Virus record (IMG/VR): IMGVR_UViG_3300025120_000567 | Location: 1-23,475 of that record | DNA: 23,475 nucleotides | Reading direction: 5' to 3' (one strand) | Origin: a virus | Part shown: one piece after another, positions 3,175 to 22,683 of the stretch | How positions within the stretch are numbered: position 1 is the first letter of the stretch | How the letters are laid out: every line of letters starts with the position of its first letter | Notes under the pieces: model-generated | Database searches by the model: none | Told to the model about the DNA's origin: nothing | What the model saw: the letters and a program-made list of their open reading frames with translations, nothing else | Program-made: the position numbers and the translations under genes

Positions 3175-3176
3175 TA

Positions 3177-5229: not shown

Positions 5230-5887
5230 CTATAAACTCTATTAATTGTGTGGCCCATTCTTTGTGTCCTTGTGCAGAAGGGTGCGGATCATTTGGACTG
5301 ATCCTTAGATTTTTATCTGTTACAAATTCCAAGTGACTGACCGTAGGATTAAAGAATCTGTCCATGTTTATTGCATTCCTGATCACTTCGAAGTCTGCTG
5401 TTCCGTTACCAAAATTGTTTGGTAGAGAATTGTACATCACATACGGGATTTGCTTACGTTCAAAATAATTCTGTAGATCAAATACGTTCTCGAGGAAATT
5501 CATTGTGAGATTATTCTCAATGTCCCAACCTTTGTTACTCCTAATGAAACTAACATTGTCTAAGGTTTTCCATGTCCTCCAGGTTAGATCTGTTCCAGGC
5601 ACCCTTCCTTTCTTCCAGCCGTCGTTGGTGATGTAATCATTCCTTATGGCACTGGACCATCCAATCACGGCGAATACGTCCTTGTCTTTGTTCTGTTCGA
5701 ACCATACCTTTGAAGAGAAACTTATCCTTACGTTTCCCCTGCCTCCCATTGCTATGTTAGAAAGATCCATGCCATAATGCTCGGCAACTATCTTGCTGGT
5801 AAAGGTATCCACCGGGTGGCCGCCCCATGTAGAGCTTACCGTGGGCCTGGGTGTGAGGAAACTGCAACCGTTTGAAAATAAAATCAT
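5204..5887 (-). CDS. SGNH/GDSL-type hydrolase
   Basis: The 227-aa protein shows the blocks of an SGNH hydrolase. Block I is FSNGCSF with likely nucleophile S9, block II the Gly-rich AMGGRGN (46-52), block III VIGWSSAIRND (74-84), and block V NDPHPSAQGHKEWA with H202. SGNH enzymes in glycan clusters usually add or remove acetyl or other ester groups from sugars. The Asp in block V lies two residues before the His (DPH) instead of the usual DxxH spacing, a variant that may still function. It starts at the block I strand, which fixes the ATG. It is the first gene of the minus-strand block, with a -10 box only eight bases from its start codon. Confidence 0.65.
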   Translation of the reverse strand: MILFSNGCSFLTPRPTVSSTWGGHPVDTFTSKIVAEHYGMDLSNIAMGGRGNVRISFSSKVWFEQNKDKDVFAVIGWSSAIRNDYITNDGWKKGRVPGTDLTWRTWKTLDNVSFIRSNKGWDIENNLTMNFLENVFDLQNYFERKQIPYVMYNSLPNNFGNGTADFEVIRNAINMDRFFNPTVSHLEFVTDKNLRISPNDPHPSAQGHKEWATQLIEFIDANNLRTI

Positions 5888-5895
5888 CTTAGTGT

Positions 5896-5904
5896 ATTAT
5901 AACA
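5896..5904 (-). promoter_or_regulatory. Extended -10 promoter for the minus-strand glycan block
   Basis: Reading the minus strand, TGTTATAAT occupies 5904-5896: a perfect TATAAT with the TGn extension. No good -35 box is seen at normal spacing. The -10 ends eight bases before the ATG of the SGNH gene (5887), so the predicted start is only two or three bases upstream of the codon. The 31-bp divergent gap leaves little room for another promoter. Confidence 0.45.
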
Positions 5905-5918
5905 TAATTATTACTTAA

Positions 5919-7007
5919 ATGTTATCAAAAAACATAACCTCGCTGAAGTATTTCCTCGACCGTTGGGAAACGGTAGACCACGAATATACCTACACAGTGC
6001 CTTATCATGATTCTATAGATCCAAAATTCACAAGTTTACCAACCTTCGTTGCAGAGTTTCATAACTGTAAAGTGCATACTTGCCCGTTGTTGTTGACCAG
6101 GGAAAACAAATTGATAACGGATCATGTTTGGAAACTGACACACAAGAGCAGACACAAGCCACATAAAAGCCATAAACTTTGGAAAGACTGGGATGACCAC
6201 GTGGAACTGGACCTGCCGCCTGTGACCGAATTTTTCCACGAGAAAGACACATACGTATGGTTGCCTGTTGACGACGACAGCAAAGGCAACCCATGGCACA
6301 TCTGGATTGATGTGATATCCAAGTTTAGATTACTTGAGAAAAGATGGTCAACAAACTTCAGTAGATACTGTTTCATAATGGCCAATCATAGTCCATATTT
6401 TGAAAAGGTGTGCAAAGAACTTTTCCCAAATGTTAAGATAGTTGTAATGAAAAAAGGTGAGACATGGCAATTCAAACATCTCATGGTACCTAGCATGAGT
6501 AACGTAAGGGACGGTATAACAACACCGGCACTTGCCCCATGGTTACGACATTTCAAAGGATTGACCAATATCAAAGGAGTGAAGCCGCACAGGAAGATAG
6601 TTGTGCTGAGGCCTGGGGCGAAGACAAGAAGGATGTTGAACTCAGATGAGTTGCTACTCAAACTGAAAGGATGGGAGACTGTTACACTGGAAAATCTAAG
6701 TATAAAGGATCAAATTAAAACATTCGCAGAAGCATCTCACGTGCTGGCGGCCCATGGTGCAGGCATGGTTAACCTATTATGGTGTCAGCCTGGGACTAAA
6801 GTAATAGAGATACAAGACAAGAACATGCTACACAAGAAAGTATATCCCTTGCTTTCTCACAATTTGAATTTGGAACACAAACTTTACCTAGCAGAAGTTG
6901 TGCAGATATCACGAGAGAAAGGAAGCAAATTACAGGGTGTCAAAAGATTCAGTGACATGATCAACTTCAAAATAAACATTCCCGAAATAATGGAGCATCT
7001 CGAATGA
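5919..7007 (+). CDS. GT61 (DUF563) glycosyltransferase
   Basis: The 362-aa protein carries the signature of family GT61 near the C-terminus: ASHVLAAHGAGMVNLLWCQP (272-291) followed by GTKVIEI (292-298). It also has the upstream NPWHIWIDVISKFRLL segment (124-139), an N-W-H-x-x-x-D pattern typical of the family, and KIVVLRPGAKTRRMLN (226-241). GT61 enzymes transfer sugars such as xylose or GlcNAc to glycans or proteins. The gene heads the plus-strand half of the island, divergent from the SGNH gene across 31 bases, and its stop overlaps the next start (ATGA). No Shine-Dalgarno sequence is visible. Substrates cannot be read from the sequence. Confidence 0.85.
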   Translation: MLSKNITSLKYFLDRWETVDHEYTYTVPYHDSIDPKFTSLPTFVAEFHNCKVHTCPLLLTRENKLITDHVWKLTHKSRHKPHKSHKLWKDWDDHVELDLPPVTEFFHEKDTYVWLPVDDDSKGNPWHIWIDVISKFRLLEKRWSTNFSRYCFIMANHSPYFEKVCKELFPNVKIVVMKKGETWQFKHLMVPSMSNVRDGITTPALAPWLRHFKGLTNIKGVKPHRKIVVLRPGAKTRRMLNSDELLLKLKGWETVTLENLSIKDQIKTFAEASHVLAAHGAGMVNLLWCQPGTKVIEIQDKNMLHKKVYPLLSHNLNLEHKLYLAEVVQISREKGSKLQGVKRFSDMINFKINIPEIMEHLE

Positions 7008-7747
7008 ACCTTTCGATCCTGCAAAAAAAGCCTGAACTGATACTGGAGCCTTATCCACATTTTGTGATCGAGGACGCCCTGCCTCAGGAGTTGTACGAAC
7101 AACTCGAAAAAGAGTGGCCTAAAGAACAACTGCTGTCTATGGAGCCATTTGATTCGGGTATATGTTATCGATTGAAGGCGGACGAGATGTTGAAGCCGGG
7201 AAAAGTTTCCAATATATGGAAGGAATTCACCAAATACCATACATCAATAACGTTCTTTAATGAAGTCAAGACTGTGTTTTCTGAATACATCAGACATGAT
7301 AATCCAGATCTTGGACCTAGGGGTTGGGTGGATAAGTCTGCACACATTTGGACAGATTGTCAAACTGTAATGCATAAGCCTATCACAACGACGACAAGGT
7401 CGCCTCACATAGACAACCCAAGAGAAATATACGCAGGTCTATTGTACATGCCATACAAAGAAGACACAAGCACAGGCGGTGAATTTCAGATCTATGATTC
7501 TGTTGATCCCGTACAGGACGTAGATATGAAGAAGGGAAGACAAATTTTTGAACATAACCTAGGAAATGTTTCCACAACAGTGCCATACAAAGCAAACACA
7601 TTCGTGATGTTTGTAAATAATTCACCTAAAGCAATACACGGAGTCACTCCAAGAATTAATGCAAGTTTACATAGACGCAGTGTAAACATAATAGCCGAAT
7701 ATAGTAGAACAAGTAAAAGTCACATGTTCATGATAAACGAAAAATGA
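7004..7747 (+). CDS. 2-oxoglutarate/Fe(II)-dependent oxygenase
   Basis: This 247-aa protein has the double-stranded beta-helix iron site of prolyl-4-hydroxylase-like oxygenases. HxD is at H135-D137 (SPHID), the distal His is H212 in KAIHGVTPR, and Arg for 2-oxoglutarate is R224 or R225 (HRRSVNI). The segment YAGLLYMPY after the HxD and the GGEF strand fit the fold. It should hydroxylate a protein side chain, sugar or small molecule using O2 and 2-oxoglutarate. T4-like marine phages often carry such enzymes. It is coupled on both sides by four-base overlaps with glycosyltransferase genes, so a role in preparing a hydroxyl acceptor for glycosylation is possible but inferred. Confidence 0.8.
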   Translation: MNLSILQKKPELILEPYPHFVIEDALPQELYEQLEKEWPKEQLLSMEPFDSGICYRLKADEMLKPGKVSNIWKEFTKYHTSITFFNEVKTVFSEYIRHDNPDLGPRGWVDKSAHIWTDCQTVMHKPITTTTRSPHIDNPREIYAGLLYMPYKEDTSTGGEFQIYDSVDPVQDVDMKKGRQIFEHNLGNVSTTVPYKANTFVMFVNNSPKAIHGVTPRINASLHRRSVNIIAEYSRTSKSHMFMINEK

Positions 7748-8553
7748 TAGCAGGAATACACACAACCAAACCTAGGACACAGCGTTACGTTGATGCTTTC
7801 GTTCGTGGTTCTGGCCAGGGTAAGATATATCAATTCAGAGATTTAAAATCATTACCTGAAGAGAATTTGACTATGTACGGCATACTTGCGGGTTCCGGTG
7901 AGGTGTACAAATGGTGTGAGAAGGAACACAGAAATTTCTACTTCATGGATCACGGCTACTTCACAAACGCACATATTAGTCCTCACTGGTTACGTATTAC
8001 AAAAAACAAACACTGTCAAAACATATTGCAAGACAGACCCACAGATAGATATGAGAAATATTTCAAACAAGATGTTAAACCATGGAACAAAGGTAAAAAA
8101 ATTCTAGTCTTGCCACCAACAAATGCTATAGCAAACTTCTTTGATGCCACGGAGTGGTTGGACAACACAATTAAGACGCTTAAACAAAACACAGACAGAG
8201 AAATTGATGTGAGAGAAAAACCTTACAACCCAACAATCAAAATTGATCACGTGGGTGCTACTGTAAAAGTAGATAGGCCTACCGAACACAAGGGCAACAT
8301 TAATTGGCACGATTATCATGCAACAGTGACCTACAACTCCAACACCATGGTGGCCAGCCTGGCCAATGGTGTGCCTGTGTTCTGTGATCCCAACAACAGT
8401 GCGGCCGCACCAATATCACAGACGGATTTCAGCAAGATAGAAACGCCCAAATACGGAGACAGGATTGCATTATTCAGCAGTTTAGCATATAATAATTGGA
8501 CACTACAAGAAATGGCCAACGGCACAGCATGGAGGATGTTGAATGAAAGTTGA
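7744..8553 (+). CDS. GT-B / capsule-type glycosyltransferase, paralogue 2
   Basis: The 269-aa protein aligns by eye with paralogue 1 along nearly its whole length: NFYFMDHGYF (64-73) with YWFTDTPYF, DRYEKYF (101-107) with DRFEKFG, TDREIDVREKP (150-160), ATVTYNSNTMVAS (193-205), GVPVFC (209-214), IETPKYGDR (232-240) and LAYNNWTLQEMANGTA (247-262). A predicted nucleotide-sugar-dependent transferase is the best reading. It starts inside the oxygenase stop (ATGA) and overlaps the next paralogue by 11 bases. It is closer to the minus-strand copy than to the two copies downstream, which suggests that duplication was followed by inversion of one copy. Confidence 0.65.
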   Translation: MIAGIHTTKPRTQRYVDAFVRGSGQGKIYQFRDLKSLPEENLTMYGILAGSGEVYKWCEKEHRNFYFMDHGYFTNAHISPHWLRITKNKHCQNILQDRPTDRYEKYFKQDVKPWNKGKKILVLPPTNAIANFFDATEWLDNTIKTLKQNTDREIDVREKPYNPTIKIDHVGATVKVDRPTEHKGNINWHDYHATVTYNSNTMVASLANGVPVFCDPNNSAAAPISQTDFSKIETPKYGDRIALFSSLAYNNWTLQEMANGTAWRMLNES

Positions 8554-9529
8554 GATATTTAGAAGGACAGTCAAGGATCGTAAACGCGGTAACAGTTACG
8601 AATTGCTTTACCATCTAAAAGAAGGTATAGAAGCGGCCGGCGACGAAGCGGTTATTGTGAATGAGAACAGATCAGGCCCAACTGTAGAAGGCGAGATGAT
8701 GCCAACAGCACCAATGGCGGCCATGTTTGGTTATGGGGGCGATAATCAGATGCATCACACAAAAGGACGACGTAGAGAGCTGGCGAATAATTGTAGGAAA
8801 AAAAAGATCCCTCTGATAACCTTTGATGGCGGATTGCTATCTAGTTTTGGTAATGTGTCGACATCACCGGATCACCATTTCAGGGTATCCTTATACACAC
8901 CCATGAACGATGGCAACTTCCTTTCAGACAACAGTCCCAGTGATCGTTGGGACATGATGGTCAAAAAATTCAAAGTAAAATACGAACCGTGGCGTAAGTC
9001 TGATCAAAACGATCCCATAATATTTGTACTTCAGCCTAAAGACAATTGGAGCATGAACGAATTAGATCCTATAGATTGGTTCAAAGGAGTATACGATACA
9101 CTGAGGCCGGCCACTGCTAGAAAATTTATTGTTCGACCACATCCTAATCACGTGGCTTCCATTGTTGCACGTAAAAAAGAGTTTCCCGAAGATGTAGAAC
9201 TCCAATTTACCCAGCAAAACTTTATAGGTGATCAAAAGAAATTTTACAGATTTCATTTCCAAGAAGCCATTACAAATGCACATGCAGTTGTCACACACAA
9301 CTCCACAGCCAGTGTAGACAGTTGCATAAGAGGTATACCAACGTTCTGTACATCAGACCTAGCTCTGTGTTGGGACGTGTGCAACAAAGATCTTAACGAT
9401 ATAGAAACACCAAAGATGCCGGACAGGACACAATGGGTGTACGATCTGGGATATAAGTTGTGGAGCATAAAGGAGATAAGTGACGGCACAGTGTACAAAA
9501 GATTCAAACAAAAGTTAGGCTTACAATGA
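8543..9529 (+). CDS. GT-B / capsule-type glycosyltransferase, paralogue 3
   Basis: At 328 aa this is the longest of the four related proteins. It has a fuller N-terminal half, including MFGYGG (61-66) and LITFDGGLLSSFGN (91-104). The shared C-terminal half has FIVRPHPNH (195-203), VVTHNSTASVDS (249-260), GIPTFC (264-269) and IETPKMPDR (287-295). The RPHPN and HNSTASVDS patterns are the most canonical of the set for capsule or GT-B enzymes. A Shine-Dalgarno GGAGGA at 8531-8536 sits six bases before the ATG, which confirms the start despite the 11-base overlap with the previous gene. Confidence 0.7.
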   Translation: MKVEIFRRTVKDRKRGNSYELLYHLKEGIEAAGDEAVIVNENRSGPTVEGEMMPTAPMAAMFGYGGDNQMHHTKGRRRELANNCRKKKIPLITFDGGLLSSFGNVSTSPDHHFRVSLYTPMNDGNFLSDNSPSDRWDMMVKKFKVKYEPWRKSDQNDPIIFVLQPKDNWSMNELDPIDWFKGVYDTLRPATARKFIVRPHPNHVASIVARKKEFPEDVELQFTQQNFIGDQKKFYRFHFQEAITNAHAVVTHNSTASVDSCIRGIPTFCTSDLALCWDVCNKDLNDIETPKMPDRTQWVYDLGYKLWSIKEISDGTVYKRFKQKLGLQ

Positions 9530-10446
9530 AATCATTATCGGTAATAACAACTTTTCCACCTAACAGATGGACCGCCTACGCAAAGAGAATGCTGGAGAGT
9601 CATATCGAATTTTGGCCTGATGATGTAATCTTATATGCGTACCACGAAGGCAACAGGCCTGACTTAAACCATCCAAAAATTAAATTTATAAACATCGAGG
9701 ATTCGAATCCTGAACTTGTAAAGTTTAAACAGCGGCACAAAGACGACCCAGTGGCCAACGGCGAAGTGCAGGAAATAGAAGGAGGTGTTCGTAGAGATCC
9801 CAATGCAGGCAAGAACGACAAAGGTAAAGGTTCATACTTGTGGGACGCTGTGAGATTTGCACACAAGACTTTCGCTGTTGACCATGCGATCAAAACACTA
9901 GACACAGATTACGTACTGTGGCTTGATGCTGACACATACACATTCCGGCCAATCACAACAGAGTTCGTTACTGGACTACTGCCCCAAGACAAGCTCGTAA
10001 ACTTCTTGGGTAGGGGTGAAAAATATCCAGAATGCGGGTGGGTGTGCTACAACAGAAAGCATCCAAAGATTAAAGAATTCATGCAATACTGGACAGACCT
10101 TTACACCAAGGACACCATATTCAAAGAACTAGAATGGCACGACAGTTATCTGTTCTGGCAGTGTGTCAAACGTGTGGCACCCGACGACGGGGTGGACATA
10201 GGCAAGGGTGCAGGCGCCAAAGGACATCATGTGTTCATCAACAGTGTGCTTGGAGCATATGTAGACCACATGAAAGGCAAAAGGAAAGTGTTAGGGAAAA
10301 GTAGCAAGAGCGATCTGCGGGGGGACAGGAACGAGAACTACTGGAAGAACGTAGAGAACTATGATCCATTTGGCGGAGTTAAGTTTGATCCCAAACAAAA
10401 AGACGATATTGTAAGCAAGGTGGCCAAAGGCACACAGGGCAACTGA
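9526..10446 (+). CDS. GT-A-fold glycosyltransferase with DXD motif
   Basis: The 306-aa protein begins with a GT-A type strand (SLSVITTFPPNRW) and has a clear metal-binding DXD motif, VLWLDADTYTF, with DAD at residues 134-136. Downstream, GWVCYNRKHP and the acidic EWHDSYLFW (about 207-215) match the acceptor and catalytic-base regions of many GT-A enzymes. It should transfer a sugar from a nucleotide donor. It lies between GT-B-like paralogues 3 and 4, overlapping four bases with the first and one base (TGATG) with the second. The exact GT family is not assigned. Confidence 0.75.
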   Translation: MKSLSVITTFPPNRWTAYAKRMLESHIEFWPDDVILYAYHEGNRPDLNHPKIKFINIEDSNPELVKFKQRHKDDPVANGEVQEIEGGVRRDPNAGKNDKGKGSYLWDAVRFAHKTFAVDHAIKTLDTDYVLWLDADTYTFRPITTEFVTGLLPQDKLVNFLGRGEKYPECGWVCYNRKHPKIKEFMQYWTDLYTKDTIFKELEWHDSYLFWQCVKRVAPDDGVDIGKGAGAKGHHVFINSVLGAYVDHMKGKRKVLGKSSKSDLRGDRNENYWKNVENYDPFGGVKFDPKQKDDIVSKVAKGTQGN

Positions 10447-11315
10447 TGAAGATCGAAGCATGGCCCATGCACGGCCCACTTAACAGTGAAAACATATTTG
10501 CCAAATTTTTGAAATCTATGCAGGCGACAGGCGACGATGTACACGTCAACAAAGAGACCAACAGCGATGTGGCAGTCATATGGAGTGTGCTATGGCAAGG
10601 CAGGATGAGAAACTACAAACAGATATGGGAAAGGTACAGACAGGCAAACAAGCCGGTGATAGTGCTGGAAGTAGGCGGACTGAGAAGGAATGAAAGTTTT
10701 AAGATCGCAATAAACGGAGTGAACAGGAAAGCGGATTTTGCCGATCAAGATGTTGACGACACAAGATGGCCATTGTTCAAACATACATTTAAACCATGGA
10801 AACAGACAGGGGACAATATAATCATATTAGGACAACACCATGCATCTGAACAATGGAACGGTATGCCTAGCATGAACGTTTGGTTTGAACAACAAATAAA
10901 TGAAATTAGAAAACACACAACAAGGCCTATACAGATTAGATCCCATCCTAGGAATCCTATGGGTTTTGATTTTGCAAAATACAAGCATGTAAGCCTTGCA
11001 CCTCCTGTGATGGACAGGAACACGATAGACGACACAAACTTCAAAGACACACTGAAAGACGCTTGGGCTGTGATTAATCATAGTTCTAATCCTGCAATGG
11101 AGGCCGTAATTAACGGAATACCTGTGTTTGTATCTGCAGACAGTTTATGCTATGACGTTGGTAATCATTCTCTGACACAGATCAACAATCCCAAAATGCC
11201 TGATCGACAAGAGTGGGCAAACAAATTGTCATACACTGAATGGTTCGAAGATGAGATAGAAAAAGGATTACCATGGAGGAGAATTAAAGACAGAATTATA
11301 AAAAAATATCTATGA
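10446..11315 (+). CDS. GT-B / capsule-type glycosyltransferase, paralogue 4
   Basis: This 289-aa protein is most like paralogue 3. Shared features are an N-terminal half with VIVLEVGGLRRN (71-82), then TRPIQIRSHPR (159-169), AVINHSSNPAMEA (208-220), GIPVFV (224-229), INNPKMPDR (246-254) and a closing LSYTEWFEDEIEKGLPW (261-277). KMPDR followed by a W-containing helix is nearly identical to paralogue 3. Its stop overlaps the next start by four bases. It probably acts in the same glycan pathway, adding a different sugar or linkage. Confidence 0.65.
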   Translation: MKIEAWPMHGPLNSENIFAKFLKSMQATGDDVHVNKETNSDVAVIWSVLWQGRMRNYKQIWERYRQANKPVIVLEVGGLRRNESFKIAINGVNRKADFADQDVDDTRWPLFKHTFKPWKQTGDNIIILGQHHASEQWNGMPSMNVWFEQQINEIRKHTTRPIQIRSHPRNPMGFDFAKYKHVSLAPPVMDRNTIDDTNFKDTLKDAWAVINHSSNPAMEAVINGIPVFVSADSLCYDVGNHSLTQINNPKMPDRQEWANKLSYTEWFEDEIEKGLPWRRIKDRIIKKYL

Positions 11316-12040
11316 ACACAAACCTAGAAATCAAATGGAAACCATACGAAGGAGAAACTGTTAACACAAATCTAATCATACGTGACGGTAAAAGGATACA
11401 AGAGACCGCTTTCTTTGAGGATCGAGTAAAAGCAGTTCCAAGGGGCAACGCCTACGTCATCGGCAACGGTCCGTCTAGGAAAGGCTTTGATCTAAACAGA
11501 TTGACAGAGACCGGACAGACCTACGGATGTAATGCATTGTACAGAGATTTCATCCCTGACTTTATATTCTCCGTGGACACAAATATGTCAATGCAGATGA
11601 TTGAGGACGAGGTCGGATTGAAGACCATCCACTACGCACCAGCCTTGCAGGCAAACAGGAAAGAGAGCAAGGGCATGATACATCTCATACCAAACAATCC
11701 AAACTGGATATCCGGCAATGCGGCATACTGGACCGCGGGTGTGCATGGACACAAGAACATCTACCTGATTGGGTTTGACTTCAGGGAGTATGGCAAAGGC
11801 GAGCTAAACAACATTTACCAAGACACGGACTACTATGGCGAACGCAACGAAGATAAGATATTCGATGGCTGGTTGAAACAGTTCAGAGACATGTTGAAGA
11901 TGAGACCCTACGTCAACTACACCGTGGTGCATGACAGGCCTCCAGACTTCATGAATTATCTACAGACAGGAACCGATCATGGGAATTCAAAAGTGATAAG
12001 TTACAGACAGTTTGAAGATACCGTACTAGCCGGTTCTTGA
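11312..12040 (+). CDS. DUF115/CstII-like protein (possible sugar transferase)
   Basis: The 242-aa protein has AYVIGNGPSRK (47-57) followed by YGCNALYRDF (71-80), PDFIFSVD (82-89) and, further on, HKNIYLIGFDF. This arrangement is typical of the DUF115/MAF-flagellin-associated family and of GT42 sialyltransferases related to CstII, which start with an AGNGPS loop and a conserved CN. These proteins bind nucleotide-activated sugars such as CMP-nonulosonates, and some modify flagellin. A sialyltransferase-like role is plausible but not established. It is the last plus-strand gene of the island, and its 3' end overlaps the convergent SprT gene by 15 bases. Confidence 0.6.
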   Translation: MNTNLEIKWKPYEGETVNTNLIIRDGKRIQETAFFEDRVKAVPRGNAYVIGNGPSRKGFDLNRLTETGQTYGCNALYRDFIPDFIFSVDTNMSMQMIEDEVGLKTIHYAPALQANRKESKGMIHLIPNNPNWISGNAAYWTAGVHGHKNIYLIGFDFREYGKGELNNIYQDTDYYGERNEDKIFDGWLKQFRDMLKMRPYVNYTVVHDRPPDFMNYLQTGTDHGNSKVISYRQFEDTVLAGS

Positions 12041-12508
12041 TAGGTTCAACCCAGCACTATTGAATTTATTTCTAAAGGCAAAGAAGTTTGCGTTGTGATT
12101 TGAATAAGGATCCTTCAGCACAGTCATCTGGTATAGGTGCACCATCTCGTGTGCCAGTGTTTCCACGAAGTCTCGAAAGGTCGGATACTTGCTGTGTAAC
12201 TCTATTGCGAAAGTGACTTCAGTCTTATCATAAGGTATCACGCTCTGATCGTAAGTGCCTTTCCTACACTTCCTGTTATCCCAGTTCGCCCAACATCTAC
12301 CCCAATCGGCATTCATCCTCACTAGATACATCGGTACCGCAGGTAATTTATTACCAAACAATCCCTTGTTGAGATGCTTGAACCAAGTGACCATTATAGA
12401 GTGTGTGGGTCTGAAGTTCCTAACGTTCTTTCGCCTAGTCAGAGTATTTTCCAATTTGATTTTCAATTGTTTCCGGACTGTGACAGTCTTTTTACTAGTT
12501 TTTTTCAT
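12026..12508 (-). CDS. SprT-like zinc metalloprotease
   Basis: This 160-aa protein carries the zinc-binding motif LAHEMVHLYQ (HEMVH at 120-124) and a downstream His, H138 in SNHNANF, as third ligand. The following helix FFAFRNKFNSAG is typical of SprT/Spartan proteases. The first 30 residues are basic (KKTSKKTVTVRKQLK), suggesting DNA binding. Spartan-type enzymes cleave proteins crosslinked to DNA; T4-like marine phages often carry a short version. It is a lone minus-strand gene between the glycan island and the UvsW operon, with a divergent promoter region of 64 bases upstream. Confidence 0.8.
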   Translation of the reverse strand: MKKTSKKTVTVRKQLKIKLENTLTRRKNVRNFRPTHSIMVTWFKHLNKGLFGNKLPAVPMYLVRMNADWGRCWANWDNRKCRKGTYDQSVIPYDKTEVTFAIELHSKYPTFRDFVETLAHEMVHLYQMTVLKDPYSNHNANFFAFRNKFNSAGLNLSRTG

Positions 12509-13927: not shown

Positions 13928-15394
13928 ATGAGCAGTTGTAAATTAGTAATAAAAGATGAAGTGAATGTGAAGTTCGAGAACCTAAGCCTCGAATGGCGTA
14001 AGAGATTATCAAACAAATTCAAATACGAGATACCATATGCTAGACATCTTCCGGCAGTCAAGTTAGGCAGGTGGGACGGTAAAGTGTCATTCTTTGGGTT
14101 GGGTGGTACAACATATCTAAATCTGGTTGATCAAATACTTCCCATACTGGACGAGGGTGGTGTGTACATAGATGTTGAGGACAAAAGAGAACAACACAAC
14201 TTTGAATTCAAAGCAGTTGATAAGAATTATCTTTCACATATAAAATGGCCCGAGAATCATCCTGTGGCAGGACAACCAATAGAACTAAGAGACTATCAAG
14301 TAGAGACGATCAACAAATTCATAGAACATCCACAAAGCATACAGGAGATCGCCACTGGTGCAGGTAAGACAATCATTACAGCGGCCTTGTGCCAATTGGT
14401 TGAACCTTACGGTCGTACACTGACCATTGTTCCAAACAAGAGTCTTGTCACACAGACAGAGGAGGACTTCCTTGCTTGTAACTTAGACGTGGGTGTGTAC
14501 TACGGCGACAGGAAAGAGTTGGGTAGGTTCAACACGATTGCAACATGGCAGTCACTAAATGTGTTAGAAAAGAAAAGCAAGGACGAGCACACAACAGACT
14601 TTCTGGAGGCCATACAAGGCATCAACACAGTAATAATTGATGAGGTGCACATGGCCAAAGCAGATGTACTGAAAAGATTGTTGACAGGACCATTCGCACA
14701 CTGCGGCATACGTTGGGGTCTCACAGGTACTGTGCCAAAAGCAGATTATGAATTCATGGGTTTGAAATGTAGCATAGGTGACGTGTCCAACAGGATACAG
14801 GCCAGCGAATTACAAGACAAAGGTGTGTTGGCAAACTGTCATGTGAATGTGTTACAGACACAGGATCATCCACAGTTCAAGACCTACGGAGAAGAACTGA
14901 AATGGCTGACCACGGACAAGACAAGGATGAAATGGGTAGCCAACACGATTAAAGACATATCCAGTTCGGGCAACACGCTGATACTTGTGGACAGAATCTC
15001 TGCCGGGGAGATATTAGAAGAACAGATAGACGATGCGGTGTTCGTATCAGGATCAACCAAAAACACAGATAGGAAGGAACAATATGATGAAATATCTACT
15101 GCAACAAATAAAGTTATTATCGCCACATATGGAGTTGCCTCTGTTGGTATTAATATTCCTAGGATTTTTAATCTTGTTCTCATAGAACCTGGCAAGTCGT
15201 TTGTCAGGGTCATACAGAGTATAGGACGTGGGATCAGGAAGGCCGAGGACAAGGACAGTGTACAGATCTGGGATATTACCAGCAGTTGCAAGTTTGCAAA
15301 AAGACATCTAGGGGCAAGGAAAAAGTTTTACAAAGAGGCCAATTACCCGTATAATATAGAAAAGATAAATTATGAAAATCCTTACACTGGATAA
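13928..15394 (+). CDS. uvsW: UvsW, superfamily 2 DNA/RNA helicase
   Basis: The 488-aa protein matches T4 UvsW (503 aa), which unwinds branched DNA and R-loops, regresses stalled forks and shifts replication from origins to recombination. Helicase motifs are in order: Q-like RDYQ (121-124), Walker A ATGAGKT (142-148), DEVH (238-241), motif III GLTGT (264-268), motif V region ATYGVASVGIN (399-409) and motif VI QSIGRGIRK (430-438). The N-terminal 90 residues, with LGRWDGKVSFF, form the small substrate-recognition domain typical of UvsW. The 3' end overlaps the next gene by 23 bases. Confidence 0.95.
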   Translation: MSSCKLVIKDEVNVKFENLSLEWRKRLSNKFKYEIPYARHLPAVKLGRWDGKVSFFGLGGTTYLNLVDQILPILDEGGVYIDVEDKREQHNFEFKAVDKNYLSHIKWPENHPVAGQPIELRDYQVETINKFIEHPQSIQEIATGAGKTIITAALCQLVEPYGRTLTIVPNKSLVTQTEEDFLACNLDVGVYYGDRKELGRFNTIATWQSLNVLEKKSKDEHTTDFLEAIQGINTVIIDEVHMAKADVLKRLLTGPFAHCGIRWGLTGTVPKADYEFMGLKCSIGDVSNRIQASELQDKGVLANCHVNVLQTQDHPQFKTYGEELKWLTTDKTRMKWVANTIKDISSSGNTLILVDRISAGEILEEQIDDAVFVSGSTKNTDRKEQYDEISTATNKVIIATYGVASVGINIPRIFNLVLIEPGKSFVRVIQSIGRGIRKAEDKDSVQIWDITSSCKFAKRHLGARKKFYKEANYPYNIEKINYENPYTG

Positions 15395-15875
15395 CAGAAC
15401 ATACAAGTTAGAGAAAATACCAGAATGGGTAGATGAGAATTTAAGGTTTGCTGTACTGGACAATTCCGATCCGGCCAATCCTGATTTCTTCTACATACCG
15501 TTGATATTCCTCGAGAGCTTCAATGCACCGGCGGCGGTGTTGGAAATTGGTCCTCACAAGATAAAGATGCCGTTGGACTGGAAAATGCTTATAGGCGAAG
15601 CAGGACAATCCGAGATGCACGTGTTGCCAATCACCAGTCTAAATGACCGAGGGTTTGACGCATTCACTTTCAATCCTCTATCAAGTCCAAAGCCAGATTT
15701 CTATCCTATAGATGTGGTAGACATTTACACGGAAGTAAAATGGTACTTCCCGAAAATCAAAACAGGACAGATGCTGGCCGTTCCGTTAAACAACGGTCCA
15801 AAACCCATGTGTGCTTACTTCGTCAAGGACATCTCGAGGCAATGCGAACAGGTGGACTATGGCTCCGTCTGGTAG
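15372..15875 (+). CDS. Conserved-looking hypothetical protein, probably beta-rich
   Basis: The 167-aa protein is not recognised. It has alternating hydrophobic segments (AAVLEIGPHKIKMPLDWKML, DVVDIYTEVKWYFP) that suggest a beta-rich fold, no transmembrane segment and no catalytic motif. The ATG lies inside the uvsW 3' end (23-base overlap) and is preceded by AT-rich sequence, not a clear Shine-Dalgarno. Position between uvsW and the clamp-loader gene points to DNA metabolism or its regulation, which is inference. Confidence 0.7.
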   Translation: MKILTLDNRTYKLEKIPEWVDENLRFAVLDNSDPANPDFFYIPLIFLESFNAPAAVLEIGPHKIKMPLDWKMLIGEAGQSEMHVLPITSLNDRGFDAFTFNPLSSPKPDFYPIDVVDIYTEVKWYFPKIKTGQMLAVPLNNGPKPMCAYFVKDISRQCEQVDYGSVW

Positions 15876-16092
15876 GAAGTCAATCACAATAGACGCACCC
15901 ATCATGATAACCAGCAACAAGATCGCTGTGTGGATGGATGAGGACTGGATGTATAGTTTCTTTGACTTTATGAAAAAACACAAATTCCAATTTTCAGGTT
16001 TACAACACAAACACAATAAAATAAAATTAACATTTGTAACAGCAAAAGAATGCACAATGTTTGCACTAAAATATGCCAGTAGAAAAAAATAG
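15859..16092 (+). CDS. Small hypothetical protein
   Basis: A 77-aa basic protein with no recognised domain, containing SNKIAVWMDEDWMYSFFDF and a lysine-rich C-terminus (FALKYASRKK). The frame is open upstream to an ATG at 15811, but that would overlap the previous gene by 65 bases. The ATG at 15859 has AGGTGG just upstream (15850-15855) and overlaps by only 17 bases, in line with its neighbours, so it is preferred. The stop overlaps the gp62 start by 20 bases. The single alpha/beta layout could suit a small DNA- or protein-binding factor, but this is a guess. Confidence 0.6.
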   Translation: MAPSGRKSITIDAPIMITSNKIAVWMDEDWMYSFFDFMKKHKFQFSGLQHKHNKIKLTFVTAKECTMFALKYASRKK

Positions 16093-16525
16093 AAAATTCT
16101 TTGATTTAAGGAACGGATTAAAAGCCGTTGACTTCAGGAACAAAGATTATTTTGACAGGATAGACGAGAAGGAGAAATCCTTGTATTCACCTTATATGCT
16201 GATGAGATACGTTTCCAGTGTGTCATCCAAGGATCCTTTTTACGTGGAACATTACATAGAAATGGTCAACGAGTGTGTGAACAAGCACTGCTTTACATTG
16301 GGTAAACACAAGAAACTGTTATGGACACTGACTGCTATGTGTGGGGCGGAGACACAGCAGTTTCATCCATGGCTGAAACCCATGAAACGTGTGCCAAACA
16401 AGAGTCTTAAAAAACTGCAACAAATATACCCCACGTGGAAGGAATCAGATCTAGAGACGTTGGACAAGGTGATCACAGACAGGGAACTAGAGGAACTGAT
16501 AGAAGCACATGGCATCGACAAATAA
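16073..16525 (+). CDS. gp62: Clamp-loader small subunit, gp62-like
   Basis: The 150-aa protein resembles the gp62 subunit of T4-type clamp loaders (T4 gp62 is 187 aa; marine relatives are shorter). Characteristic segments are SPYMLMRYVSSV (39-50), HKKLLWTLTAMCG (79-91) and HPWLKPMK (98-105), followed by a charged helix to the end. gp62 joins four gp44 ATPase subunits to open and load the gp45 sliding clamp. In T4 the gp44 gene is adjacent, but no gp44 or gp45 is in this window. The gene overlaps neighbours on both sides by 20 and 17 bases. Confidence 0.75.
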   Translation: MPVEKNRKFFDLRNGLKAVDFRNKDYFDRIDEKEKSLYSPYMLMRYVSSVSSKDPFYVEHYIEMVNECVNKHCFTLGKHKKLLWTLTAMCGAETQQFHPWLKPMKRVPNKSLKKLQQIYPTWKESDLETLDKVITDRELEELIEAHGIDK

Positions 16526-17192: not shown

Positions 17193-17418
17193 GATCGATT
17201 TAGAAGTGTCTGACAACTTACAATTTGATGATGGTGACTGTGCCGTGATAATCAAAGACGACGGATCCATAGGAAGAGTGGTCATGCCTGATGTAAATAG
17301 GAAAATGATAGCGTCCGAAGGATACAGGAAACTGTTAGATGTTCTAGAAGTATTGCAACCAGGTGCACGTGATAAAATGATAAATTATGCTGAAAAAGGC
17401 AAAGGGAGTATGCACTAA
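17185..17418 (+). CDS. Small hypothetical protein (TTG start)
   Basis: A 77-aa acidic protein beginning at TTG, with a strong Shine-Dalgarno upstream. The N-terminal half forms likely beta strands (NLQFDDGDCAVIIKDDGSIGRVVMP), and the C-terminal half a helix (YRKLLDVLEVLQPGARDKMINYAEK). No family is recognised. Its TAA overlaps the ATG of the DnaE-like gene by one base (TAATG), so the two are probably co-translated and could act together. Confidence 0.65.
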   Translation: MSKIDLEVSDNLQFDDGDCAVIIKDDGSIGRVVMPDVNRKMIASEGYRKLLDVLEVLQPGARDKMINYAEKGKGSMH

Positions 17419-18008
17419 TGCCTGATGTAGACATAGACTTCTTTGACAGAGACAACACACTAAAACTTTTCAAGCACACACCTGCTTCAATGATCAAAGA
17501 TGGTAAAAGCGAAAAACACAAAACAGGAGTCTACTTCCACGCCGTTCCCGAACATCCTGTGACAGGACATGCTTCACTAGATTACAAGAATGCAGAGGAC
17601 AGAGGATACTTTAAAATAGACTGTCTAAATGTAAACATATACAAAGATGTTAAATCAGAACAAGAACTAGTAGAACTGATGATACAGGAACCTGATTGGG
17701 ACATGTTGAAAGATCCAAAGATAGTGGAAAACCTTTTCCACCTGAATGGTCATTTCAATATAGTGTCCAAATTGGAACCACGTACCATAGAACAACTTGC
17801 GGCTGTACTAGCAATCATACGTCCTGCTAAAAGAGGACTGATGTACAAGGACTGGACTGATATACTGAAAGAGGTATGGACCAAACCAATCGATGGCAGT
17901 TACTTCTTCAAGAAGTCACACGCTGTGGCATATGCACAGGCCATAGTAGTGCAAATGAATATGCTCACAAAAGATAAATATAACTTTAGTGTACAACAAG
18001 ACAAATAA
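17418..18008 (+). CDS. Miniature DNA polymerase III alpha (DnaE)-like protein
   Basis: This 196-aa protein looks like a stripped-down C-family polymerase, a family of about 1,100 residues in bacteria. It begins with PDVDIDFFDR (D3 and D5), matching the catalytic PDxDxDF motif. FKIDCLNV (D68) matches the KFDFLGL motif with the third catalytic Asp. EPRTIEQLAAVLAIIRPA (120-137) matches the DnaE segment ending in LVALxRPGP, and FKKSHAVAYA (164-173) matches FNKSHSAAYA. The motifs occur in the DnaE order with most intervening sequence lost, and the PHP, most finger, beta-binding and OB regions are absent. Whether it polymerises DNA is unknown. A binding or regulatory role is equally possible. Confidence 0.65.
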   Translation: MPDVDIDFFDRDNTLKLFKHTPASMIKDGKSEKHKTGVYFHAVPEHPVTGHASLDYKNAEDRGYFKIDCLNVNIYKDVKSEQELVELMIQEPDWDMLKDPKIVENLFHLNGHFNIVSKLEPRTIEQLAAVLAIIRPAKRGLMYKDWTDILKEVWTKPIDGSYFFKKSHAVAYAQAIVVQMNMLTKDKYNFSVQQDK

Positions 18009-18273
18009 AAAACTCACTAAAAAATCCAAACCCACTGTAGTAGACCTATCCAATGATGGACCGTTCTCGGTCGTGTCGTTGTCCAAGTTTCTCACAGACT
18101 ACTGGAAGTCCAAAGCAAAGAACACGTGGAAAGTCATGAACAAAGAGGATCAACTGAATGCCCTCTGGATCATGAACGAACTGCCTTACTGGCAACAGAT
18201 TTGGAGTGAACGTGGTATTAAAATTAGATGGGATCGCAGACAGCGGTCTTTTTTTTTGAATTGTATTAAGTAG
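17989..18273 (+). CDS. Small basic hypothetical protein (GTG start)
   Basis: A 94-aa protein in a GTG-started frame that overlaps the DnaE-like gene by 20 bases. The N-terminus is lysine-rich (NKKLTKKSKP) and the middle helical (FSVVSLSKFLTDYW and EDQLNALWIMNELPYWQQIW). No clear Shine-Dalgarno supports the GTG. Its last codons run through a terminator-like hairpin and T-run, and it converges with the next gene with an eight-base overlap of the 3' ends. The function is not recognised. Confidence 0.55.
   Translation: MYNKTNKKLTKKSKPTVVDLSNDGPFSVVSLSKFLTDYWKSKAKNTWKVMNKEDQLNALWIMNELPYWQQIWSERGIKIRWDRRQRSFFLNCIK
18232..18257 (+). terminator. Intrinsic terminator at the end of the UvsW operon
   Basis: GATCGC (18232-18237) can pair with GCGGTC (18243-18248) with one G-U pair and a five-base loop, followed directly by nine Ts (18249-18257). 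It lies inside the final codons of the small gene ending at 18273 and separates the plus-strand operon from the convergent gene. Confidence 0.6.
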
Positions 18274-18640
18274 GACGCCTGACTAGTTGGATGGTCCTTC
18301 TCTTGACACGTTTCTTAGAGATGTCAGAAAGTCTCACAGTTGGTCCGTGTACTATTTTAACATCCTTTGAGTTGAGTGTGATCAGTGTCGATCGAAAGTG
18401 TCTAAATTCGCCCTTGAGAAATATGTTGATTGGCAATTTACGGTTGGACTCGTGCCACCAAGTTTCACCAGATTTCAAAAACTGGGCTTTGTCCTGTGAT
18501 ATTATCAACTTACCGTAGTCGTAGAAACTGATTACATTGACGTCTTCGTTTTGTATTATGCCCACATACTCCAGGTCTCCCTTTTGGATAAGGCTCAAGA
18601 ATGGGAATTTGTCTCTTAATGTGTTAAAAATTTCATTCAT
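18266..18640 (-). CDS. Hypothetical protein, convergent with the UvsW operon
   Basis: This is a 124-aa protein read from ATG 18640 (MNEIFNTLRDKFPF). The frame continues upstream to an ATG at 18790, but that extension would overlap the opposite-strand structural gene and its promoter, and it looks unlike a natural N-terminus, so it is rejected. The protein has beta-type segments (YVGIIQNEDVNVISFYDY), a distinctive GETWWHESNRKLPINIFLKG motif and a very basic C-terminus (KKRVKRRTIQLVRRP). No family name is recognised; the compact basic fold would suit nucleic-acid binding. Its stop overlaps the convergent gene's stop region by eight bases. Confidence 0.65.
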   Translation of the reverse strand: MNEIFNTLRDKFPFLSLIQKGDLEYVGIIQNEDVNVISFYDYGKLIISQDKAQFLKSGETWWHESNRKLPINIFLKGEFRHFRSTLITLNSKDVKIVHGPTVRLSDISKKRVKRRTIQLVRRPT

Positions 18641-18648
18641 TCTATATC

Positions 18649-18656
18649 TATAAATA
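18649..18656 (+). promoter_or_regulatory. T4-type late promoter box TATAAATA
   Basis: A perfect TATAAATA, the T4 late -10 read by the gp55 sigma factor, sits upstream of the only apparent virion gene in the window. Transcription would start near 18662, ahead of both possible starts (ATG 18673, GTG 18751). In AT-rich DNA one or two chance copies are expected per window, so it is the position that makes the match persuasive. Confidence 0.65.
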
Positions 18657-18735
18657 CTGTTAAATATGTACAATGCAAACAGTTTCAAGATATTTACTAT
18701 CACAGTTGGTAATAGCCTACGTAAGTGGTTATCAC

Positions 18736-18743
18736 GGGAGGAG
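18736..18743 (+). promoter_or_regulatory. Ribosome binding site deciding the structural gene start
   Basis: GGGAGGAG lies seven bases before an in-frame GTG at 18751. The upstream ATG at 18673 has no Shine-Dalgarno sequence. The GTG start places the protein's conserved-looking YDRRLTLHRG segment at the very N-terminus. Confidence 0.55.
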
Positions 18744-18750
18744 TTCAAAA

Positions 18751-19476
18751 GTGTACGATAGACGCCTAACACTGCACAGAGGGGTATCAAATCCTGTGAC
18801 GTTCACATTCAAGAACGAAGATCAGAAGGCGCAGGATATCACATCCAAGACCTACGAGTTCAACATGATCGATTCCGAGAGCAAAAAAGCGGTTCTAACC
18901 AAGACATTGAGCATATTAGATGATGGATCAACAGTGAGCACAAAAGGCGACGCAAGTTGCACGATCACAGAAGGTGATTTATTACCACTAGACGCCAAGT
19001 TCTACAACTTCTCAGTGCGGGAAGTAAATTCTGATGGTAGCAGGGAGATCACGTATGCAGACACAGGATATGCGGCCGCAGGCACAGTTGAACTGTTAGA
19101 TGGTGCATACCCGGAATTCGTAGCGAGTACAAGTGTTTCAAGTTTTACCGCATCAGGAGGTCCGTTAGCATATACTTCAGGATCCATAGATGCAAGGCCA
19201 GGCATCAACAACAACAAAGCATTACACACGATAGCAGTGTACACAAAGAATTTCTCAGGAGCATTGAGAGTGCAGGGCACCATGAGTGCATCACCGAGCG
19301 ACACAGATTACTTTGACATTACCATGGAAGGTGCGGGATCAACTGCAAACTCATTCTCGGATTCTACAACAGTATCCAACTTCAACTTCACAGGCGTGTA
19401 TCACAGCGTGAGATTCAGTTGGGGCAACGACACTGGTAACACTGGTGTGATTGACAAAATCCTATATAGACAGTAA
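18751..19476 (+). CDS. Virion structural protein (baseplate/fibre type)
   Basis: A protein of 241 aa from GTG 18751 (267 aa if ATG 18673 is used). The N-terminal 45 residues (YDRRLTLHRGVSNPVTFTFK...QDITSKTYEF) resemble the beta-sandwich starting domain of BppU-type baseplate and fibre proteins, which often begins polymer-forming tail proteins. The middle is Ser/Thr/Gly-rich, and the C-terminus ends in a beta-rich domain with VYHSVRFSWGNDTGNTGVID and ILYR, a pattern seen in marine T4-like structural proteins. Composition and the perfect late promoter upstream both support a virion gene. The primase promoter sequence overlaps its last codons. Confidence 0.65.
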   Translation: MYDRRLTLHRGVSNPVTFTFKNEDQKAQDITSKTYEFNMIDSESKKAVLTKTLSILDDGSTVSTKGDASCTITEGDLLPLDAKFYNFSVREVNSDGSREITYADTGYAAAGTVELLDGAYPEFVASTSVSSFTASGGPLAYTSGSIDARPGINNNKALHTIAVYTKNFSGALRVQGTMSASPSDTDYFDITMEGAGSTANSFSDSTTVSNFNFTGVYHSVRFSWGNDTGNTGVIDKILYRQ

Positions 19477-19489: not shown

Positions 19490-20503
19490 ATGAATCTTAT
19501 ACAGAATACAATTCTGACTAGTCTTCCTGCGAACAGAAAGAAAACACCAAGCGGTTGGATCAGTTTCAACGCACCTTGTTGTGTGTACAACGGAGAGACC
19601 GCAGACAAGAAGAAACGTGGAGGACTGATGACCAGTGCGGATGGCACAGTCAGTTATCACTGTTTCAACTGTGGATTCAAAACAAGTTATGTGATAGGAC
19701 GTAAACTGACCTACAAGATGCGGCAGTTCATGAGTTACATAGGCATACCGGAAGATACCATACGTAAGTTGGCCATAGAGGCCATGCGTGAAGAAGAGGG
19801 CGATGTGAAGTATGAGAAGAAGAAATTTGTGACATTCAAGAACAAGACACTACCCAAGGACACGCACAAATTAGATGTGTGGTTGGAGAAGTACGTGGGC
19901 AATGATCTCACAGAACCACAATGGAAGAAGATAGACGGCCTATTGAAGTACTTGGAAAGCAGGGGAATGGGTGCCGACTGGTATGACTTCATGTACTCAC
20001 CTGACAAGGTGTGGGACGTGCATCAGAGATTGTTGATACCATTCTATTGGCGAGGAGAGATTGTCGGGTTCACAGGTAGGATGTTTGAGGAATCGCAAGG
20101 CGTAAAATATTACACAGATGTTTGGCCTGGATATGTGTTCAACATGGATGCACAGGATTGGACAAGGAAGTTTGTGATAGTCACGGAAGGACCATTTGAT
20201 GCCATATCCGTTTCTGGTGTGAGCATACTAGGATCCGAGATAAATGACACACAAAGAGAGCTGATAGATGGGTTGGGCAGAAGAGTAATTGTGGTGCCAG
20301 ACAGAGATGCTCCGGGAGAAAAACTAATAGGACAAGCAAAAGAATTTGGATGGAGTGTGGCATTCCCCGAGTGGGGTGATGGAGTCAACGACATCGCTGA
20401 TGCCGTTGCAAAATACGGGAGGCTATTTGTACTACAGTCAATATTGAAGACAGCAGAGTCAAACAAATTGAAGATAGATCTTAAAAGAAAAATGTATGCG
20501 TAA
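19490..20503 (+). CDS. gp61: DNA primase, gp61-like
   Basis: The 337-aa protein matches T4 gp61 (342 aa), which works with helicase gp41 in the primosome to lay RNA primers on the lagging strand. An N-terminal zinc-ribbon region has C30-C31 and C58-x2-C61 (HCFNCGF). The Toprim catalytic core has EGPFDA (233-238) and PDRDAPG (270-276), which supply the metal-binding acidic residues. The start has no Shine-Dalgarno sequence. The gene's 3' end overlaps the sulfotransferase-like gene by eight bases. In T4 the primase and helicase genes are close neighbours, whereas here that extra gene separates them. Confidence 0.9.
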   Translation: MNLIQNTILTSLPANRKKTPSGWISFNAPCCVYNGETADKKKRGGLMTSADGTVSYHCFNCGFKTSYVIGRKLTYKMRQFMSYIGIPEDTIRKLAIEAMREEEGDVKYEKKKFVTFKNKTLPKDTHKLDVWLEKYVGNDLTEPQWKKIDGLLKYLESRGMGADWYDFMYSPDKVWDVHQRLLIPFYWRGEIVGFTGRMFEESQGVKYYTDVWPGYVFNMDAQDWTRKFVIVTEGPFDAISVSGVSILGSEINDTQRELIDGLGRRVIVVPDRDAPGEKLIGQAKEFGWSVAFPEWGDGVNDIADAVAKYGRLFVLQSILKTAESNKLKIDLKRKMYA

Positions 20504-21200
20504 AAGACTTTTAGAAAATATAAATTTCATTTTTTACGTACCAGGCAGTGCAGGATCACTGTTAAGTGTTCTCATGAAATCACAAATAGAAGAAGATTTC
20601 GTCTTTAATGGATTCGTTGATGATACTGCTCACAATTATGATCACGATGCTGTACAAGATACACAAAGCCATCGTGATTACATTGAATTTAAAAAATCAA
20701 ATATTAGTATTACAGATCATATAGAAAAAAACTTATGTAGCGACTCGTTGACACAAAGAATATTTTTTCCTAAGTGGATTGATGAATTTATTAAGATAAA
20801 AAATCTAAATTTAATTATATGCTATATGGAAGATTACAATGTAAAACTATTTAATTTCTACAAAAAAACTGACGGATCATCACTAGCACCTCCTATAGAT
20901 GGAAATTTTGATTATTTTAAAATTGATAAGACTCATGAGAAATACGAAACAATAATGTATATCAAGTGTTTAAACTGGCTAATGGAGTTGGAAAAAAAAC
21001 ACTTGCACACTATTCCTACAATTAAAATAGACAAAATACTGAAAAAGGATTTCAACGAATTTCAACAAATCTGTAAGATCACAAATGTTTCTTTATTGGA
21101 AGAAATTATCGATCAATACAACGTAAAAAATAAAAAAGATTTTAATATATTACCAAATAGTATGAAAAGATATTTAAAAAAATATCATAATAGTATATAA
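20496..21200 (+). CDS. AT-rich accessory protein, possibly sulfotransferase-like
   Basis: A 234-aa protein starting with a hydrophobic strand and P-loop-like segment NFIFYVPGSAGSLLS (9-23), which resembles the PAPS-binding loop of sulfotransferases. A C-terminal IPTIKIDKILKKDFNEFQQI also fits that fold loosely. It is rich in Lys, Ile, Asn and Asp and much lower in GC than its neighbours: a hand count of 60 bases at 21121 gives 8 G/C, against 30 in a 60-base stretch of gp61. The gene sits between primase and helicase, a location that suggests a later insertion. A sulfotransferase would fit the glycan theme, but the assignment is weak. Confidence 0.6.
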   Translation: MRKRLLENINFIFYVPGSAGSLLSVLMKSQIEEDFVFNGFVDDTAHNYDHDAVQDTQSHRDYIEFKKSNISITDHIEKNLCSDSLTQRIFFPKWIDEFIKIKNLNLIICYMEDYNVKLFNFYKKTDGSSLAPPIDGNFDYFKIDKTHEKYETIMYIKCLNWLMELEKKHLHTIPTIKIDKILKKDFNEFQQICKITNVSLLEEIIDQYNVKNKKDFNILPNSMKRYLKKYHNSI

Positions 21201-21207: not shown

Positions 21208-22683
21208 ATGGCTGATTATAATAACAACGAACAACACCAGGCTAAGAACTATTCGTTTGATGTCCAGAAATTGTATATAGAGATGTTGTTGGCGGACGCT
21301 GAATCATTTGCTAGGGCACAGAACATATTCAACCCTAACTCATTTGATCGTAAACTGCAACCAATTGCTAAGTTCGTTAAAAACTACATGGACGAGTACA
21401 AGGTCATGCCGGAAGTTGACATAGTAAATGCATCGCACGATATAAAATTAAAGACAGCGAAGGATTTAGATCCAAGCCACTTCAACTGGTTACTAGATGA
21501 GTTTGAAACATTTTGTAGACATAAAGCACTTGAACAAGCAATACTATCATCTGCCGATCTATTAGAAAGAGGTGACTATGGTCCTGTTGAGGACATGGTC
21601 AAGGAGGCCGTGCAAGTTGGCCTTACAAGAGATCTCGGCACAGACTACTTCGAAGATCCAAAGGGAAGACTAGAGGCACTTAAGGATAACAATGGACAGA
21701 TCAGCACTGGATGGCAGAACTTGGACAAGAAACTTTTTGGTGGTTTCAACAGAGGTGAACTAAACATCTTCGCGGGTGGATCGGGAGCAGGTAAGAGTTT
21801 GTTCTTACAGAATCTTGCAGTCAATTGGTCATTGGCCGGATTGAATGTTTGCTATATCTCTTTTGAATTGAGTGAGCAACTTACTGCCATGAGATTAGAT
21901 GCAATGATGACTAACATTCCAACGAGAAAAGTGTTTCCGGAAATAGATAATGTTGAGATGAAAGTTAAGATGTTGAAAAAGAAATCAGGTAACTTGCAGA
22001 TCAAATACTTGCCAAGTGGTAGCAACGTGTTAGACGTGAGAACATATCTGAAAGAGTTAGAACTTAAGAACAAGAAAAAAATAGATTGTATACTGATCGA
22101 CTACTTGGATCTTATGATGCCAAAGAGCAAACGTATAAGTCCGGCGGACTTGTTCATAAAAGACAAGTATGTGTCTGAGGAACTGAGGAACTTAGTTGTT
22201 GAGAAACACTGTGTATTGGCAACAGCATCACAGTTGAATAGAGCATCGGTTGAAGAAATAGAGTTTGATCACTCTCATATATCAGGTGGACTGTCTAAGA
22301 TACAGACAGCAGACAACGTGATTGGTATATTCACATCGAGAGCAATGAAAGAGCGTGGCAGATATCAAATACAGTTCATGAAGACTAGATCCAGTTCTGG
22401 CGTTGGACAAAAAGTAGATCTTGAGTTTGATGTAGACAGTTTGAGAATAAGAGACTTGGCCGATGACCCAGAATACAAACAGTTTGACAAACAGAGAAGC
22501 ACAATATACGATTCTCTGAAACAGACATCCAAAGTATCCTCAAGTGGTGGTGCACCAAAAGATGCGAGACCTGATGTACCAGATCCAACAAAAGGCGACA
22601 CTATTGGCAAAGTCAAGGCTACTGTGGAAGGTGGCAAACTGAGACAACTTCTAAACGAACTGCACTCAGATGAAGAACAGTAA
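21208..22683 (+). CDS. gp41: Replicative DNA helicase, gp41-like
   Basis: This 491-aa protein is the DnaB-family hexameric helicase of T4-type phages (T4 gp41 is 475 aa). It unwinds DNA at the fork and travels with primase. A helical N-terminal domain (1-150) leads to the ATPase core with Walker A GGSGAGKS (190-197), a catalytic-glutamate-type YISFELSEQ (216-224), Walker B CILIDYLDLM (294-303) and the later SQLNR and SGGLSKIQTADNVIG segments. The C-terminal 60 residues are charged and Pro/Gly-rich and probably contact partner proteins. The gene overlaps the endonuclease III gene by 14 bases. Confidence 0.95.
   Translation: MADYNNNEQHQAKNYSFDVQKLYIEMLLADAESFARAQNIFNPNSFDRKLQPIAKFVKNYMDEYKVMPEVDIVNASHDIKLKTAKDLDPSHFNWLLDEFETFCRHKALEQAILSSADLLERGDYGPVEDMVKEAVQVGLTRDLGTDYFEDPKGRLEALKDNNGQISTGWQNLDKKLFGGFNRGELNIFAGGSGAGKSLFLQNLAVNWSLAGLNVCYISFELSEQLTAMRLDAMMTNIPTRKVFPEIDNVEMKVKMLKKKSGNLQIKYLPSGSNVLDVRTYLKELELKNKKKIDCILIDYLDLMMPKSKRISPADLFIKDKYVSEELRNLVVEKHCVLATASQLNRASVEEIEFDHSHISGGLSKIQTADNVIGIFTSRAMKERGRYQIQFMKTRSSSGVGQKVDLEFDVDSLRIRDLADDPEYKQFDKQRSTIYDSLKQTSKVSSSGGAPKDARPDVPDPTKGDTIGKVKATVEGGKLRQLLNELHSDEEQ

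Follow-up and report, generated by a model that had tools for sequence, protein, structure and literature searches.

Iyer et al., 2021 (Viruses, PMC7824862) found in the group 2.2 jumbo phages, beside their family B polymerase, a minimal Pol III alpha that is split into an N-terminal NTP-binding protein and a C-terminal Mg2+- and template-binding protein, encoded by distant genes; in the literature found, the split is a computational observation only. The window studied here (the whole stretch of DNA analysed, a virus record of 23,475 bases) encodes a 196 aa protein of the C-terminal kind, below called the C-half, with the N-half as its partner. A preliminary description of the window had called a C-family protein in a phage with a family B polymerase unexpected; the same arrangement was already present in the 2021 study, and that surprise falls away. 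The split enzyme is thus already known, and what is added here is the fixed breakpoint, a test of the pairing of the halves, the loss of a fingers motif, the gene neighbourhoods at gp44 and at the helicase, and a second DnaE core.

In our view, the 196 aa protein likely serves a marine T4-like phage of the group 2.2 jumbo lineage as the C-terminal one of two separately encoded subunits of a minimal C-family (DnaE-type) polymerase core, and the two halves likely rebuild one site that carries out short synthesis for the family B replicase. Behind this reading stand the observed ancestry of the protein, its invariant metal-site residues, the complementary halves and their pairing, and purifying selection.

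DnaE ancestry of the 196 aa protein

The DnaE motifs quoted in the preliminary description are all present, and in order, in the 196 aa reading frame (Table 1). By motif, D3, D5 and D68 are the equivalents of the three catalytic aspartates of E. coli DnaE (D401, D403 and D555), with D7 that of D405, and all four are invariant in 178 of 178 C-half homologues. H34, G37, K66, R135, P136, K138 and H168 are likewise invariant across the set, and some of the invariant residues, W94 and K138 for example, are specific to the phage proteins. Homologues with invariant catalytic residues extend down to about 37% identity and come from phages of many hosts.

Table 1. Features of the window, in order of position, with family assignments and E. 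coli DnaE counterparts.
Feature	Position	Strand	Remarks
UvsW-like helicase	13928..15394	+	phrog_16, E 1.8e-76; syntenic, upstream of C-half
C-half ORF	17418..18008	+	196 aa, ATG start, phrog_11778; the C-terminal half, with catalytic Asp and fingers, of the split minimal Pol III alpha
PDVDIDF	17421..17441	+	D3 codon 17424-17426, D5 codon 17430-17432, D7 codon 17436-17438
KHKTGV	17514..17531	+	counterpart of E. coli KHAGGV (510-515); H34, G37 invariant
FKIDCLNV	17610..17633	+	K66 = E. coli K553; D68 (codon 17619-17621) = D555
Fingers-like segment LFHLNGHFNIVSKLEPRTIEQLAAVLAIIRPAK	17733..17831	+	counterpart of E. coli about 608-642
FKKSHAVAYA	17907..17936	+	counterpart of E. coli FNKSHSAAYA (756-765); H168 invariant in 178/178
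DNA primase (gp61-like)	19490..20503	+	phrog_47, E 2.2e-37; syntenic, downstream
DnaB/gp41-like replicative helicase	21208..22683	+	phrog_19, E 4.3e-73; syntenic, downstream
Unsplit DnaE core, first 19 codons	23418..23475	+	last 58 bases; cut by window end

As a single sequence the protein finds nothing significant in Pfam, NCBIfam or the PDB, so its kinship with DnaE is visible only through family profiles and predicted structure. A profile of 59 family members scores 11.7 bits on E. coli DnaE and 11.3 bits on a 563 aa phage DnaE core; among 1000 shuffles of DnaE, the highest score is 3.4 bits. M. tuberculosis DnaE1 aligns in four separate segments with their order kept, and when hhalign sets the profile against E. 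coli DnaE as a single sequence, the correct segments align, at a probability of only about 10%. The AlphaFold2 model of the window protein (pLDDT 90, pTM 0.77) bears on the fold, which had been set beforehand as a point on which the C-family assignment might fail: the 13 best Foldseek matches in the PDB are all chains of Pol III alpha or other C-family polymerases (E from 6.8e-4, probability up to 1.00), and the first unrelated match follows at E 0.73. TM-scores against the C-family chains are about 0.5, a value that the large deletion in the query probably holds down. As modelled, the protein carries the three catalytic aspartates, together with two fingers segments, on a Pol III alpha-like fold. 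At the position of D405, Asp is the DnaE state and Asn the PolC state (PMC3919608); D7 is Asp in all 178 homologues. Of the three outcomes named beforehand as refuting the assignment (no profile match to C-family polymerases, a different fold, homologues without the aspartates), none occurred.

A family search places residues 3-186 in phrog_11778, 'DNA polymerase' (E 7.2e-66). The protein is common in the whole phage group and no isolated oddity, being found in 90 isolate phage records, with hosts that include Agrobacterium, Sinorhizobium, Pseudomonas, Klebsiella, Escherichia, Erwinia, Vibrio, Xanthomonas and Salicola; with the window protein alone as query, 429 IMG/VR stretches were recovered. 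Where records are annotated, C-half and N-half are often already named 'DNA polymerase' or 'DNA polymerase III alpha'. A search of 84,980 genomes of bacteria and archaea matched the C-half in only two contigs; both are filed under archaeal MAGs (L469 and L470; Natrialbaceae, Pacearchaeota) and are probably misbinned phage sequence.

At one sixth of the normal length, the protein could be taken for the decaying remnant of a captured dnaE, though the preliminary description had already held that the preserved aspartates argue against this. The selection data bear it out: the median dN/dS, measured against 77 close relatives, is 0.044, and the C-half is therefore not a decaying remnant. The frame is open in all homologues, and the deletion boundaries are identical across deep phage lineages; we give decay almost no credence.

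The N-half, the breakpoint and the pairing of the halves

One PF07733 N-half gene was identified in each of the eight isolate genomes examined. The protein (phrog_11127) is about 170-182 aa long and contains GRGS; its profile matches residues 320-393 of E. coli DnaE and a Pol III alpha chain in the PDB at E 5.6e-5, and the 15 best PDB matches of its predicted structure (pLDDT 92) are all C-family polymerases. In 145 of 152 sequences, its terminus lies exactly 33 residues past the first residue of GRGS, just short of the position where the PDxDxDF of the C-half begins; with the end fixed in this way, the break in the chain consistently falls at one point, after the dNTP-binding motif and before PDxDxDF.

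This division bears on the suggestion, made in the preliminary description, of a mini-polymerase. All three aspartates are present in the C-half, and its model folds confidently by itself, as would suit a stand-alone enzyme or a homodimer; however, the GRGS nucleotide-binding motif is not in its chain and is carried by the separate N-half gene, in a close relative of the window as well as in all eight isolates, so that the C-half is not self-contained. The partner gene supplies exactly the missing preceding segment, both in the isolates (8/8) and in the six longest C-half contigs (6/6), and we regard a C-half acting alone as very improbable.

Both halves and a family B polymerase are present in 8/8 isolates, and the family B polymerase also in all nine long contigs tested. 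Among contigs of at least 220 kb, the N-half was found in 6/6 of those with a C-half, and the C-half in 7/8 of those with an N-half. The sole exception to strict pairing among records of this size is G005 (locus L124; 359 kb), in which the N-half and Pol B are present and the C-half was undetected even at E 10; the record may be incomplete. Across 24 genomes, N-half distances correlate with C-half distances (r 0.495, permutation p 0.0002), part of which is shared phage ancestry.

The window does not contain the N-half or the family B polymerase within its 23 kb, and in a record of merely 23,475 bases the N-half is not to be expected. A 196-kb relative, G028, has a C-half 81% identical to that of the window, together with an N-half and a family B polymerase. 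For the N-halves of the G028 cluster, 15 of 60 metagenome samples are shared with close relatives of the window; for other N-halves, the figure is 2 of 69 (Fisher p 0.0004). This comparison is biased, both sets being marine, and is taken as supporting evidence only.

The pairing also bears on interference with the host Pol III, which had been proposed in the preliminary description and for which a decoy, mimicking part of DnaE, would be a form; nothing was found in support of such interference. DnaE ancestry would suit a decoy, but catalytic residues would be needless for it and yet are invariant to about 37% identity across the phages of many hosts. Furthermore, no region for binding the clamp, tau or epsilon of the host can be recognised, and the partner half co-occurs. 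We consider a decoy highly unlikely.

Replisome neighbourhoods and a second DnaE core

The gene order in the window is UvsX, UvsY, UvsW, C-half, primase, helicase. The isolates are much the same: in most of them the C-half comes after uvsX, uvsY and uvsW, and in 7/8 it lies a few kb upstream of a gp41-type helicase; where the primase is annotated, it is found between the two. The N-half lies within about 2 kb of the clamp-loader gene gp44 in all five isolates examined for this (121Q, RaK2, PAC2, where gp44 is annotated as an AAA domain protein, Atu_ph07 and XacN1), and in most of these a gp31/chaperonin-type gene separates the two; in the marine lineage (L193), it is likewise near a GroES-like gene and gp44. 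Both halves thus lie within replisome gene clusters, not adjacent to each other. The gp62 clamp-loader neighbour named in the preliminary description did not hold up: the gene at 16073-16525 is unrecognisable as T4 gp62 (hhalign probability 0.1%), and this assignment was rejected.

Several other features of the region were observed. Directly 3' of the C-half and convergent with it is a small minus-strand gene, 18266-18790 (phrog_11637, unknown function); the isolates have a small minus-strand gene at the equivalent place, with one gene in between in XacN1. In several isolates, the UvsY-like and UvsW-like genes are near neighbours; in the window, about 10 kb (1874-12500) of what look by eye like methyl-/glycosyltransferase or capsule-type genes lie between them. 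A phrog_11279 protein is encoded near the C-half (15372-15875, + strand), and in XacN1 a protein similar to it by eye (L092:2508-2996, - strand) is encoded two genes from the N-half; it is possible that this protein is a further component of the split system. In the primase-helicase interval, the ORF at 20496-21200 (+ strand) looks completely unlike that at the equivalent place in the close relative L004 (13067-13795), which is otherwise very similar; the difference suggests a swapped cassette inside the replication cluster.

The window ends within a second DnaE-type gene (Table 1). Its complete copy in L004 (16019-17707) encodes an unsplit, PHP-less protein of 563 aa with the motifs TRGSAGSS, PDVDIDF, LKVDIL, RRAFAKK and RAHAV, matching PF07733 (8.8e-44) and PF17657. 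This core is encoded in 94 IMG/VR stretches, its best match in the annotated collection being to an uncultured 484-kb phage (38.5% identity). Neither the eight isolates nor the nine long contigs tested yielded it; for G028 its absence is uninformative, as the expected position lies beyond the end of the contig. The 563 aa core was also considered as a substitute for the N-half in this lineage, and was rejected as the default, a true N-half being present in G028. It is probable that the lineage of the window combines Pol B, the split mini-Pol III and the extra DnaE core.

Possible function and comparison with known systems

The C-half is greatly reduced. The thumb-containing stretch of E. coli DnaE, about 105 residues (406-509), has shrunk to about 25, and the stretch from RPG641 to the KSH motif from about 115 residues to about 30. 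The fingers motif RRAMGKK (E. coli 709-715; searched as RR-x(2-4)-KK) occurs in 0 of 178 C-half homologues. A MAFFT alignment of the joined N- and C-half pair with DnaE was gap-prone, with the last motif misplaced, and was used only upstream. In C-family structures, arginines of the RRAMGKK fingers region are known to contact the incoming nucleotide. The absence of this motif and the deletion of the thumb count against the reading favoured here, as catalysis could be lost or changed; with both missing, polymerase activity of the split enzyme is plausible, though unproven.

Because the fingers motif is missing, a changed function keeps some weight. The heterodimer might carry out a metal-dependent nucleotidyl transfer other than ordinary polymerisation, such as terminal or template-independent addition or primer tagging, or might serve as a scaffold for the primer-template end in the T4-like replisome. 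The loss of thumb and RRxxGKK in all 178 homologues alongside invariant metal-site residues would fit this, as would the invariance of residues peculiar to the phage proteins (W94 and K138, among others), but the invariant equivalents of D401, D403, D405 and D555, together with the intact GRGS of the partner, form the constellation of active C-family enzymes, and we think such a function rather unlikely.

In the favoured reading, that of a two-subunit polymerase core, the N-half and C-half would associate and together restore a single nucleotidyl-transfer site of the Pol-beta type, in which the triphosphate of the dNTP is held by the N-half, and Mg2+ and the primer end are held by the C-half. 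Since the PHP, thumb, OB, clamp-binding and tau-binding domains are all lacking, such an enzyme would work distributively and make short stretches only. Its most likely job would be short synthesis aiding the family B replicase, for example by extending the primers made by the primase, with gap filling in recombination-dependent replication as an alternative. The sole basis for this role is the neighbourhood, the C-half gene lying between uvsW and the primase and helicase genes and the N-half gene near gp44. A bolder and quite tentative scheme, which we would not expect to hold as it stands, has three polymerases: the T4-like family B replicase; the two-subunit thumb-less DnaE core, passing primers from the gp61/gp41 primosome to the replicase; and the separately acquired, unsplit 563 aa core about 5 kb downstream. 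The proposed hand-over of primers would be a phage counterpart of the bacterial DnaE-to-PolC or the eukaryotic pol alpha-to-delta switch.

A replicative-type active site would here be split between two small genes, kept under strong selection next to a family B replicase in hundreds of phage genomes from ocean, soil and enteric sources. If active, it would be an exceptionally small C-family polymerase, and it would test which parts of DnaE the chemistry needs. With the fixed breakpoint, the near-strict pairing and the neighbourhoods, the split is testable directly with two proteins of about 180-200 aa.

Compared with bacterial DnaE (E. coli, M. tuberculosis, T. aquaticus), the C-half has, in unchanged order, the three metal-binding aspartates and the counterparts of the DnaE-specific D405, of K553, of the fingers segments and of the KSH motif; unlike it, the C-half is without the PHP, thumb, RRxxGKK, OB, and beta- and tau-binding regions, and the chain of the split enzyme is broken between GRGS and PDxDxDF. 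The DnaE-like proteins of the Streptomyces phages Ejemplo and Lika are also phage C-family enzymes; they are relatives of the 563 aa core, matched as a single chain over most of its length, and do not belong to the 196 aa family. The closest system is the split minimal Pol III alpha described in PMC7824862 (phrog_11778 and phrog_11127). The window differs from it in coming from an uncultured marine lineage and in that the genome fragment also begins an extra unsplit DnaE core, not found in the eight isolates; it shares with it the family of the C-half and, to judge by its relatives, probably also the division into NTP-binding and Mg/template-binding halves, the placing of these in distant genes and the co-occurrence with a family B polymerase.
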